Source: Medicago truncatula (lineage: Eukaryota; Streptophyta; Magnoliopsida; Fabales; Fabaceae). Taken from it: a stretch of 64,000 bases of DNA. Under the pieces are notes generated by a model. That model did not search any database. It had not been told where the DNA came from and was given only the letters and a program-made list of their open reading frames with translations. Location of the stretch: the NCBI RefSeq assembly GCF_003473485.1, contig NC_053048.1, forward strand, positions 47,008,255-47,072,254, read 5' to 3'. The position numbers were made by a program, and so were the translations under genes. Shown piece by piece: positions 51,029-57,100 of this stretch (position 1 is the first letter of the stretch; each line of letters opens with the position of its first letter).

Positions 51029-51750
51029 GGAAATTAATACTTCCCACTTTGATTCAATCAATAGTCCAAATGGCTCCATTTAACATCAACAACAATTATA
51101 TATAGGTCTTTGTTTTTGGTTGTTTAATCTTTTGATTATGAATATAATAGTAGACAACAAAAACACCATTTAAAATACGTACTAATGATTTCAAAGGTTG
51201 GAGATACATATATTCCAACCAACTCCCATATTACTATATTATTATGAGTTAACTTTATGACACCATCGAATTCACTTGTTGTATCCAATATAAAATTTAG
51301 TTTTCAATTCAACCTAACAAAAATAGTAAATGACCTCAAATAATAATAGTACTAGAAAACAAGTTCGGATAGAATTTCCTACCTAATAGGGAACATGATT
51401 AAGTACCCCTCATATATAGATTAGTAGATTAATTCAAATAGAGATCTACAACTAAAAATGAAAGAATAACTTGTTGAATATTATTTTGGCCTCCTCATTC
51501 TATACACATTGTTTGTTACGCAAATCCAACTAAATAATATTTAAATGCAACAGAATACTAACTAAATTAGTGACTCAGCATAGAAGCACAAATATAAAAA
51601 AAATGGTGTACTGATACACCAATAGCCAATTGTCCTAGTGATATGGCATTTCATCTCAACTGCTGCCACATCATTTTCAAGATGTCTTGTCTTGCACAAT
51701 TGTTGCATTTAACAGTAATATTATTCATTCACCATTCTATATCATCTGTG
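51029..51750. other. 3' flank of the WAT1 gene
   Basis: The 3'-UTR and AT-rich spacer. No second coding feature or clear repeat. The last nine bases, TCATCTGTG, are the left target duplication of the adjacent MULE. Confidence 0.5.
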
Positions 51751-53289
51751 AATTTTTTTTTTCTGCCCTAGTTTATGCCAAAAAATACAAAAATGTCCTA
51801 CTTTTTCGAAAAATTGCATAAATATCCTATTTTTTTAGTGTCTCAGGTACCACTTCACTTGGAGTTGCGGGGTACCCTAAAAAGTGACAAAATTTTTGTC
51901 CTTATTGTACCCCTCTACTTGGAGTTGCGAGGTACTTTACTATTTTTTTTTAATTTTTTTCCTACCCCACAAGTGTGACTTGCGTTTTATACTTTGGTTT
52001 TTTTTTTAAATTTTTTTTTTAAATACCCCTCTACTTGGAGTAGAGTGGTATAATAAAGACAAAAAAAAAAATCAACATGTAATAATAACTTAATAATAAA
52101 AAACTAATTAAAATATTATATAACAAATAAAATACCATAAAATCTACAATTATTTGCAGGAATGACCAGACATCCTACAAACGAAATAAAGATTAGATTT
52201 CTACTGATGTCTAATATTAATGCAATCTCTGCGGGAATGACCAGACATCCTACAAACGCCGCATCTTCTCTCAGTTTCCACATCGTCCATCTCGGTCCTA
52301 ATGCGAGTAATTGGTGGACGACCTTTATTTGCCCTACGCATGGACTTGTTGGGAACCACCTTCAGTCCTTCATAATTAGGCCAATATGTCTGGTGGTGAA
52401 CCACGTCGAAGTGGATGTTGTATACGGCGTATACACACTCATTCGTGAATTTGTTATCGACAAAAGTCTTGTAGTCGTGACAAAAGCTAGAACATGCGGC
52501 AATGACATGTGAGCATGGTAGGTGTAACACTCTGAATCGTCCACAGTCACACCATTTATTTTGCAGGTCCACCTTGTATTCTCCCTTTGGCAATCCTTCT
52601 TTATGGTCGATGGTTTCACGGACGGAAAAGGTATACCGATCCCGGTCAAACTGAGCGACATGATGATTGTTGGATTTAATCACCTCATTCCTGAGATATT
52701 TCATGCTGTTTTCTGAGAATGGCTCACTAGAATTTACCCTTGCCGCATTAGGACCGAGATGGACGATGTGGAAACTGAGAGAAGATGCGGCGTTTGTAGG
52801 ATGTCTGGTCATTCCCGCAAAGATTGCATTAATATTAGACATCAGTAGAAATATAGTCTTTATTTTGTTTGTAGCATGCCTGGTCATTCCCGCAAATAAT
52901 TGTAGATTTCATGGTATTTTATTTGTTATATAATATTTTAATTAGTTTTTTATTATTAAGGTATTATTAAATGTTGATTTTTTTTTTTTTGTCTTTATTA
53001 TACCACTCTACTCCAAGTAGAGGGGTATTTAAAAAATTGAAAAAAAAAAACAATGTATAAAACGCAAGTCACACTTGCGGGGTAGGAAAAAAAATAGTAA
53101 AGTACCCCGCAACTCTAAGTAGAGGGGTACAATAAGGACAAAAATTGTCACTTTTTAGGGTATCCTGCAACTCCAAGTGGAGTGGTACCTGGGACTCTGA
53201 AAAAGTAGGACATTTGTGCAATTTTTCGAAAAAATGGGGCATTTTTGTATTTTTTTGGCATAAACTAGGGCATAAAAAAGAAAAAAATC
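51751..53289. mobile_element. Mutator-like element with foldback 550-bp TIRs
   Basis: The ends read CTGCCCTAGTTTATGCCAAA (left) and TTTGGCATAAACTAGGGCAT (right) after a T-run. Flanks carry the identical 9-mer TCATCTGTG (51742-51750 and 53290-53298), a Mutator-size target. The inverted arms run 51751-52305 and 52744-53289. They share GGTACCACTTCACTTGGAGT, GTACCCCTCTACTTGGAGTT and AAGTGTGACTTGCGTTTTAT-type blocks, and on the inner side GGAATGACCAGACATCCTAC and TCTCAGTTTCCACATCGTCC. The 438-bp unique centre holds the SWIM domain of a transposase. It lacks the transposase N-terminus and catalytic domain, so it cannot move itself. Confidence 0.92.
52201..52743 (-). pseudogene. C-terminal fragment of a MULE transposase (SWIM + zinc knuckle)
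   Basis: On the minus strand the open frame runs from the inner edge of the right arm (52743) to a stop at 52201. It reads RVNSSEPFSENSMKYLRNEV at the start, then the SWIM zinc finger KWCDCGRFRVLHLPCSHVIA (CxC...CxH), then QTYWPNYEGLKVVPNKSMRR, and ends with a CCHC zinc knuckle CGVCRMSGHSRRDC before INIRHQ-stop. This is the usual C-terminal order of MuDR-type transposases. The DDE domain is absent. The frame stays open another 48 codons upstream, but those are antisense of the zinc-knuckle region copied into the right arm. A second degenerate knuckle (VCRMSGHSCK) lies past the stop at about 52160-52185. Confidence 0.88.
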
Positions 53290-53298
53290 TCATCTGTG

Positions 53299-54187: not shown

Positions 54188-57100
54188 CTACAAGAATCTT
54201 GAAACGGAGTCAATGCAACTTTGTGTCCTTGTTGCCAGTAACATGATTTGTTCTTCAGCTTGTACTTTAGCAGCAGCACAACAAGTAGATGGCAATGCAG
54301 CAGAATTTGTGAATGGTTTTAAGGGACAAGATCTTGAGATGGTGGTAGAAGCAGAACGTGTGAGATTCTTGTTTGTCATGTCCACTTGTGCTGTGAATAG
54401 AGAATACACTGGTCTATGGTCAGAGAATTTTGACTCTCCTCTAACATACATTTTCTGATTTAGTCCTTCTCCTTTCCATAGAATTCTATCACACCTTCAG
54501 CAACCAAAAAATATTAATTAAAAGATATCAAATTTTAATAGCTTTCGTAATGTGAGTTGAATCATAAAAATCATACCAAGCAGGAGTGCGTCGTTTTTCC
54601 TTTGATTTGCAAGTTTGAGCAACATATTGGTCAGAATTCATCAAGTATTTGTAAGTAGGAGCAAAGTATATGCTCCCTTCATTCCAACCTTCAAATATTC
54701 GTCCAGCATTCTGCTCCATCCTTAGTTGATCTTTCTCTAGTAACGCCTTCAAGTTATTGTTTTTTAGTAGCTCATGAATTTCATCGTAACCAGCGGCAAG
54801 TCTATAATTCAAATCCCCCAACCAAATAATGTTACTGCACATATACCAAATTAATTAAGAGTGTGTAGATATTAAATAATTAGAAATTTGGAATCATTAT
54901 TCATAGGACTTACTCATGTTCTAGTATACCAAGTGAGTGAGAAAATTTAGTTCTCTTGATGATTTCCGCGATGTCCAAGTTTCGACGCAACTCGTCACCA
55001 CATTTCTCTCCAGAGGCCAAGTGAGTGCAAACGAAGCAGAATGTGGTTTGGTACAATCTCATGCTAATAGATATCGAACCCTGTTAGCATAAACCACAAA
55101 TTTACAAAAATGTAAGCAATGAATCATAATCATACCACTGTAGCCAGTACATAGTCCTACTTCATCTTGAAATGTCACATTTCCATAGCAAAATCTGAAG
55201 CAATAGCTAATTAATTAGAACCATTTTATAGCCCCCCTCATATATAATTGTACATAACACGCGCATATTGAACCACATATATGACATCAACGTGTAATTT
55301 CTTTTATACTATCAATCAATCATAATCGTCAGATCATTTGACTTTTAACGAACCTTATTTCCAAGGTAGCCCATGATGCCGGTACCAACGCGAGACACTT
55401 TTAAATTGCCAACGTGGTTGCGATAATCGGCGCGTACCCACACGCACAAGAAGATACCGACCATTTGCTTGCTTGCTACTAGGCTAAAGCGTTTCTTTTG
55501 ATTTGGGATTTCATTGTTTGAGGTGTTTAGAGCTTGATGAATAAGGGCTAGCCACTTTGCTGCGGGGCCACTGTTCTCCGACCCAAGCACGTTCCCAGCA
55601 TTTAGTGGTACAATTTCTTGGAACCTAAGAGATCAAAAACAAGCCAATACAACAAAAATTAGATTTACCTTTTTTTTTTTTAATCTCCAAAATCAAAAAG
55701 TACTCTAATTTGGATAAGTTGAATCATACAAAAATAAGAAGTTGGTAACAGTTTAGTTTTACTATTGATAAACTTTACATAAACATCAAATCATATTTTA
55801 TGATCTTATTCTTATTACATAATAATATTATACCGATTAAAACATGTTTATGTGTACACAAAAATCATAATTTTTTTGGCATATGCCAAACAACCTTTCA
55901 ACATCTTAATGCTCTTATTTAGGTCATAAACTTGCACTATTAAACTCGGAATAAAAATCATATCTATATGATCAAACACATATGTTAGTATAATATTATG
56001 CGGTGCACTATATGCGGCACTTATTTTAAAACGGATGAAGAAATTTAAATACTCTAAAATTGCATAAAATACTTGCACAAAAAAAAAAAAAAACGATAAT
56101 TAAATAATCATTAAATGAAGGTGCAAGATCTAAATACACCTATTTATATTCAAATGGTGGCTGTAAGAGTATAGCCGTCGTAGATAATCCATAATCATCA
56201 AGACAGATGTTTTGAGTAAACTTGAACTCCTAAGAATATTTAAAGAGATTTAATTGATGCATATATAAAAGGTAATAGGTGGATTGAGTGGAAATGAAAA
56301 ATAAATAAAATACTACAGACAAAGTAGTAGATAGCCAAATAGGGAACATAGATGATAAGATTAAGTAAAAAGAAATAGTTAAAATAAAAAAATACCCAAT
56401 AACATATATGTCAGCTGGCGAAGTAGATATCAGCCAATTTTTCAAGTCCAAATTTTCATTTGGTGACTTTCCCCCAACATTCCACGTCCCCACAAACATC
56501 CTACACAAGAGTTAATTCAATTTTTTTAGAAGTCAATAATAATAATACTTCAGAAATGTTTTGCTAAAATAAGCTAGGCACATATTATTAACTTAAAATT
56601 TTAGGTTAGCCACATGTTACTTCAAAAAATAGGTATGATGGGAGCATTTACCTAAGGTTGAGAGGATTAGTGATGGTAGAAGGTTTTATCTCTCCATGCA
56701 CCGAACGTTTCACGCCATTTGTAGAATGCTTCAACCACCCTTCTTTGAAAACAAGGACCAAATATTATTAATTAGTCAGACATCAACCCGAACCAAAAAA
56801 ATACATTAACTTCAAAAATATAGTAAGTGCTGGTATTAAACAAAAAAACATAGGTTTTGGAAAATTTTAAGCTAAAAACATCCTAAAAACACCTAAAAAA
56901 TGCACCTAAGTCTAATTAGTTGTATCGATTTATCGATATCCTAGTTTTATCTAATTCACACATATAAAGTTTTTTCGTTCTAAATTAAAGAAATTATGTT
57001 ACTTAAGTACGATTCTTCTGATAACAAATATACAAGCTTAGCACTCTAAAATTTGCATGCCAATTCTTCCAAAAAAAAATAACCACTCCAAAACCAAAAC

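Follow-up and report, generated by a model that had tools for sequence, protein, structure and literature searches.

A foldback MULE inside an exact target-site duplication

The window analysed here is a 64-kb stretch of the Medicago truncatula genome (C7:47008255-47072254 of an assembly of 429,922,655 bases in 42 contigs). At 51751-53289 it carries a MULE of 1,539 bp, enclosed by an exact 9-bp target-site duplication (TSD; Table 1). It is a short, broken version of a plant transposon of the cut-and-paste type, in which the same parental end stands twice, face to face. Nearby, on the minus strand, lie exons of an inositol polyphosphate 5-phosphatase-like gene with Exo_endo_phos2 matches at 54528-54854 (E = 2.7e-27) and at 54188-54496 (E = 9.1e-5, below the Pfam cut-off). 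This frame is oriented towards the element and stops about 0.9 kb short of it.

Table 1 Features of the foldback, its neighbouring gene and the related foldbacks (window coordinates unless a locus is named)
Feature	Position	Strand	Basis
Left target-site duplication, TCATCTGTG	51742..51750	.	sequence match
Left TIR, ~404 bp; the part present at both ends of close full-length relatives	51751..52154	+	
Post-stop sequence of the transposase gene, including a decayed second knuckle-motif copy	52155..52200	-	
Transposase 3' coding end in the left arm: stop and 34 codons, CCHC knuckle CGVCRMSGHSRRDC	52201..52305	-	
Single-copy loop, transposase C-terminal coding sequence with SWIM finger	52306..52743	-	
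Junction with 3-bp CGC microhomology (CGC = 52744-52746)	52743..52746	.	
Second, inverted transposase 3' coding end, in which knuckle and stop are still readable on the + strand	52744..52848	+	
Inverted copy of the post-stop sequence	52849..52894	+	
Right TIR, inverted copy of 51751-52154; 23/386 compared sites differ	52895..53289	-	
Right target-site duplication, TCATCTGTG	53290..53298	.	sequence match
Inositol polyphosphate 5-phosphatase-like exons	54188..54854	-	Exo_endo_phos2
L030, second 3'-end foldback, 1,168 bp	L030:1453-2620 = C8:21330452-21331619		
L031, 5'-end foldback, 1,333 bp	L031:581-1913 = C2:46927480-46928812		
L032, 5'-end foldback, 1,333 bp	L032:596-1928 = C2:39496345-39497677		
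L033, probable 5'-end foldback	L033:620-1676 = C6:32841219-32842275		

We observed that each arm consists of a TIR of about 404 bp and 151 bp from the 3' end of the transposase gene. The latter segment comprises 46 non-coding bp from beyond the stop, followed by the stop itself and 34 codons, CCHC knuckle included (105 bp of duplicated coding sequence per arm), and a single-copy loop of 438 bp separates the arms. The initial annotation had proposed that the zinc-knuckle end of the transposase is present twice in opposite orientation, and the knuckle and stop were indeed found in the left arm with their inverted copy in the right. It had also described the target duplication as intact; both copies match at 9/9 positions and are the only occurrences of this 9-mer in the window on either strand. 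Pairwise alignment of 51753-52305 with 52744-53283 spans 556 columns, of which 507 match, 30 mismatch and 19 contain gaps. The identity of the arms is 94.4% ungapped (507/537) or 91.2% with gaps, well above the limit of about 70% that the annotation had set for its reading. The innermost 76 bp (52230-52305) are identical. A 29-bp knuckle-coding motif occurs twice at a spacing of 75 bp, at 52155-52183 and 52230-52258, and again in the inverted copies; the second copy sits beyond the stop codon, and partial second matches are seen in relatives too.

The open frame that runs through the loop (52908-52201, minus strand, 235 aa) contains a SWIM finger (PF04434, E = 1.3e-6). Its match is to the C-terminal ~180 residues of an open frame of 827 aa at a full-length relative in the same genome (L027); 174/220 residues are identical across the complete BLASTP alignment. 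If the first ATG (52887) is taken as the start, the transposase sequence begins at residue 49, whose codon has its first base at 52743, at the right-arm boundary, exactly as first annotated. Structurally, the earlier description was correct in all details checked.

Three lines of evidence place the element among MULEs. The 827-aa frame, whose tail the window fragment matches, carries the MULE domain (PF10551, E = 5e-16) together with a MuDR-type DNA-binding domain (PF03108, E = 1e-8) and a SWIM finger (PF04434, E = 1.9e-6). The TSD is 9 bp, with 9/9 matches in the window and in 16/18 relatives with two recognisable ends; the remaining two reached 8/9 (L025) and 7/9 (L024) as the best of 169 offset pairs each. 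Finally, the TIRs are long. Alignments were obtained for 18/18 two-ended relatives. For L010, L011 and L024 the sequence common to both ends runs up to query position 404; for L012 and L014 it stops at 364-388.

The coding segment is one-sided in the relatives examined

Two-sided coding arms as a standard feature of full-length relatives would have run against the initial annotation, and we looked for them in 20 relatives. These were hand-picked from the 39 other places scored first (40 of 172 candidates were scored, window included); 18 are informative at both ends, as L009 and L013 have no right end. None of the 20 carries the coding segment in both orientations, and a two-sided arm is thus private to the foldback among the relatives examined, which rules it out as a standard family feature. 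The two-ended relatives have TIRs at both ends and the 3' coding segment of the transposase at one. The loop is 95.9-97.9% identical to the 17/20 relatives that align over its full length, and the other three align over 199-240 bp.

At the junction, the parental sequence reads ...CCCTTGC/CGC/YGCYTCATG in 16/16 relatives shown (of the 20 fetched; the match of L012, L013, L014 and L025 ends before this point), and the window reads ...CCCTTGC/CGC/ATTAGGACC. The central CGC is common to the parental sequence and to the inner end of the inverted arm. Random joins in one parent (L011, join points 450-1500) give at least 3 bp of microhomology in 5.6% of 20,000 trials, so the shared bases argue only mildly for microhomology-guided joining. 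Other copies of the 52743/52744 junction, for which the initial annotation had proposed a search, were not found: a search of the 430-Mb assembly for the 24-bp junction pattern, with up to 3 mismatches allowed, gave a single hit, in the window itself. Of the two histories that the initial annotation had offered for this copy, transposition in foldback form and formation after insertion, either may apply. Taken together, the one-sided segment in the relatives and the unique junction with its microhomology indicate that both ends of the foldback descend from one parental end, as in Mu killer.

Divergence of the arms

The arms differ at 23/386 sites in the TIR (K2P 0.062) and at 7/151 sites in the coding part (K2P 0.048; Fisher p 0.68). 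About equal divergence is what a single event would predict. It fits both a right TIR that was kept from the parent and then extended and a left end that was copied whole, and does not separate the two. The arms are sisters at 99/98 support in a tree that includes L030 and leaves out the L024 rows, compared with 69/34 in an earlier tree without L030 and with the L024 rows in. In the former tree, the L030 arms are sisters at 91/87, and the window arms, L030 arms and L013 group together at 100/99.

The TIR pairs of some relatives also group, those of L010 and L024 with good support and that of L011 at 84-89, whereas those of L012 and L014 do not; across the 18 two-ended relatives, the two TIRs of one element are 82-99% alike. 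For these reasons TIR divergence is no clean clock, and the TIR part alone neither proves copying of the left end nor dates the foldback. The coding part (4.6% divergent) is the better clock.

Among the changes private to one arm, 12/14 polarised changes in the left arm and 5/14 in the right are C>T or G>A (4 undecided), and in L030 the deamination-type changes number 3/3 and 6/10 (4 undecided). The excess in the left arm is consistent with methylation, though not specific to it. The difference between the left and right arms of the window element is a possible asymmetry in small numbers.

Further foldbacks in the family

We found four further foldback loci in the same family, of which one goes back to the 3' end and the other three to the 5' end. 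A 33-mer from the 3' coding end, searched across the assembly with up to 3 mismatches allowed, returned 70 sites at 68 loci, of which two carry both orientations: the window and C8:21330969/21331061. A 28-mer from just inside the right end, the 5' end of the transposase, returned 59 sites at 56 loci, with 3 inverted pairs. Since more diverged copies, or arms that stop short of the motif, escape such searches, both figures are minimum counts.

The second 3'-end foldback (L030) has arms with 565/578 identical sites, almost no loop and a 10-bp palindrome, GCCCTAGGGC, at its centre. The centre of its left arm is altered and looks as if the palindrome had been revised. Because its arms extend further into the coding sequence and it has no loop like that of the window element, it arose separately from the window foldback. 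A convincing TSD was not found for L030, with 6/9 matches at the natural ends and at most 7/9 in 144 offset pairs. It sits between the arms of another inverted repeat (L030 1098-1330 and 3644-3877).

Two of the 5'-end loci, L031 and L032, hold one foldback at two sites, with 1,324/1,330 positions identical over the element. Their arms are more than 99% identical ungapped (649/651 and 643/647, with 24 and 17 gap columns; the alignments extend into the flanks by 11 and 6, and by 1 and 1, bases) and enclose a 24-bp loop. The TSDs are perfect 9-bp duplications and differ from each other (CTAGAGATG and TATGTTTAA), and no similarity between the flanks was found above that of 50 shuffles. This 1.33-kb element has therefore transposed as a foldback. 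The third 5'-end locus (L033) has arms 93.9% identical (462/492) and a 52-bp loop; a TSD was not found (6/9 in 169 offset pairs). Its best ten matches among the fetched elements reach 72-84% identity, and part of its loop resembles, by eye, the inner edge of the left TIR; this makes it the least certain of the foldbacks. For this reason we put the number of independent formations, which involve both ends, at least at three and probably at four.

A predicted hairpin and the question of silencing

One reading of the structure is that it acts as a silencer in the manner of Mu killer: read-through from the 5-phosphatase gene, or promoters in the TIRs, would yield a hairpin RNA that Dicer would process into small RNAs against the MULE family. 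The predicted RNA fold of the whole element, which pairs 520 left-arm bases with the right arm (MFE -923 kcal/mol for the + strand and -896 for the - strand), speaks for it, as does the orientation of the neighbouring minus-strand gene, from which read-through into the element is conceivable. In addition, every one of the 20 relatives has 21-mers in common with the coding parts of the arms: of 131 per arm, 13-67 on the left and 26-78 on the right. The mostly deamination-type changes private to the left arm are expected of methylated DNA, but such change is common in any methylated TE. The duplicated coding part is only 105 bp long, however, and the 21-mers of the TIRs are nearly absent from a sister subfamily, L015-L022 (0-1/384 left, 0/375 right). 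Moreover, three members of that subfamily (L016, L018 and L019) are 99.2-99.6% identical over 6.65 kb, with different TSDs, and are far younger than a foldback whose arms are 5.6% apart overall. These copies spread long after the arms had separated, even though 39 (left) and 55 (right) of the 131 coding-arm 21-mers occur in them; of the TIR 21-mers they contain 1/384 (left) and 0/375 (right). Lasting silencing is for this reason doubtful: durable, family-wide silencing by the window element appears unlikely from these comparisons, and we regard the silencer reading as a whole as improbable. The three young copies, on C5, C2 and C7, are two-ended, recently active MULEs of 6.6 kb with open frames of 625 aa and 282 aa.

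A wider version would have the MULE family convert one or other of its ends into mobile hairpin elements time and again. Loci that silence their own family, as Mu killer does, might then be no rare accidents: they would form regularly, could transpose, and would spread through the genome hairpins directed at the 3' end of the transposase or at the promoter end. We consider this, too, improbable.

Origin of the foldback

Two other accounts would make the structure something other than one rearranged element. With at least 68 motif-bearing loci in the assembly, same-family neighbours in inverted orientation are possible, and two MULE fragments could have come to lie head to head or one within the other. 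However, a single TSD pair encloses the whole element, the arms are sisters (99/98), and the junction lies inside coding sequence with no terminal sequence there. On the strength of the TSD pair and the sister arms we reject a double insertion, and we hold juxtaposed or nested fragments to be highly improbable. Inverted duplications can also arise in genome assembly, so that a false palindrome has to be considered; but 30 of the 537 aligned arm sites differ, the TSD is intact, and several different foldbacks exist in the family. The changes private to each arm likewise lead us to reject such an artefact, which is highly improbable here.

Instead, the element is likely a non-autonomous MULE derivative that arose by inverted duplication of one element end, probably during repair. 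This reading draws on the anatomy, TSD, sister arms and junction of the foldback itself, and on the recurrence of such forms and the transposition of one of them in the family. Formation would most likely have started with a break or an excision gap in a full-length parent, followed by aberrant repair. On one side, 993 bp would have been copied from the left end inwards. On the other, the broken end would have been extended on the sequence of the left end, copying the TIR and 151 bp of the transposase 3' end; homology between the ~404-bp TIRs allows the wrong one to be used as a template. Joining of the two repair products at the 3-bp CGC microhomology would yield an element whose ends both derive from one end of the parent and whose body can form a hairpin and retains no more than a fragment of the transposase. 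As only this fragment remains, the foldback could move only with transposase supplied in trans. We infer that it is a by-product without a selected role. Inverted pairs stand at 2/68 loci bearing the 3'-end motif and at 3/56 bearing the 5'-end motif. The MULE family has been active recently, and we take the window element to be one outcome of a rearrangement that recurs within it.

At least three and probably four independent half-element inverted duplications within a single MULE family of one genome, from both ends and with one of them demonstrably mobile, make the birth rate of such elements and their small-RNA output measurable. Their recurrence suggests a simple route from long-TIR transposons to foldback elements.

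Relation to known systems

To our knowledge, Mu killer is usually treated as a singular locus. The element at 51751-53289 was not named in the titles and abstract openings of the literature searched, most of it non-subscription, and in the text considered of a barley MULE study (PMC9168764) nothing comparable was found.

The closest likeness is to Mu killer (Muk) of maize, which, in the account considered (PMC3440606), is an internally deleted MULE with both TIRs from one element end and a partial transposase gene in inverted duplication, and into which nearby genes could read through. The window element has both ends from the same parental end and an inverted transposase duplication, and its Mu-killer-like architecture is real. 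The two differ in extent, as Muk repeats sequence reaching 1.298 kb into mudrA and the window element repeats 105 bp of the 3' coding end plus the TIR. The centre of Muk could not be sequenced (PMC3440606), whereas that of the window element is a sense loop of 438 bp. Genetically, Muk acts as a dominant silencer (PMC3440606); for the window element, silencing would be a putative activity. Read-through was proposed for Muk; in that account, short antisense transcripts occur in silencing individuals, and the read-through transcripts are sense and occur in individuals that fail to silence (PMC3440606).

In M. truncatula itself, MuTAnT is likewise a foldback-forming MULE with a 9-nt TSD, but its copies are mostly 200-300 bp and target TA microsatellites (PMC4486113). 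It is described by TIR modules, without transposase coding sequence in the arms in the text considered (PMC4486113). The FARE and foldback elements of Arabidopsis, as described in work cited there (PMC4486113), are similar in their long palindromic end repeats and are classed with MULEs. Pack-TIRs, interpreted as products of gap filling and template switching, resemble the window element in their breakpoint microhomology and repair-born internal rearrangement; microhomology in products of TIR transposons is given as 1-36 bp with a median of 2 bp (PMC8277862). The filler in that study is non-TE DNA (PMC8277862), whereas here it is the element's own other end. Finally, young plant MIRNA genes are described (PMC3086885, citing Allen 2004) as arising from inverted duplication of part of a gene, which gives a hairpin complementary to that gene. 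In the window element the hairpin is a predicted one, and its target would be the transposase.
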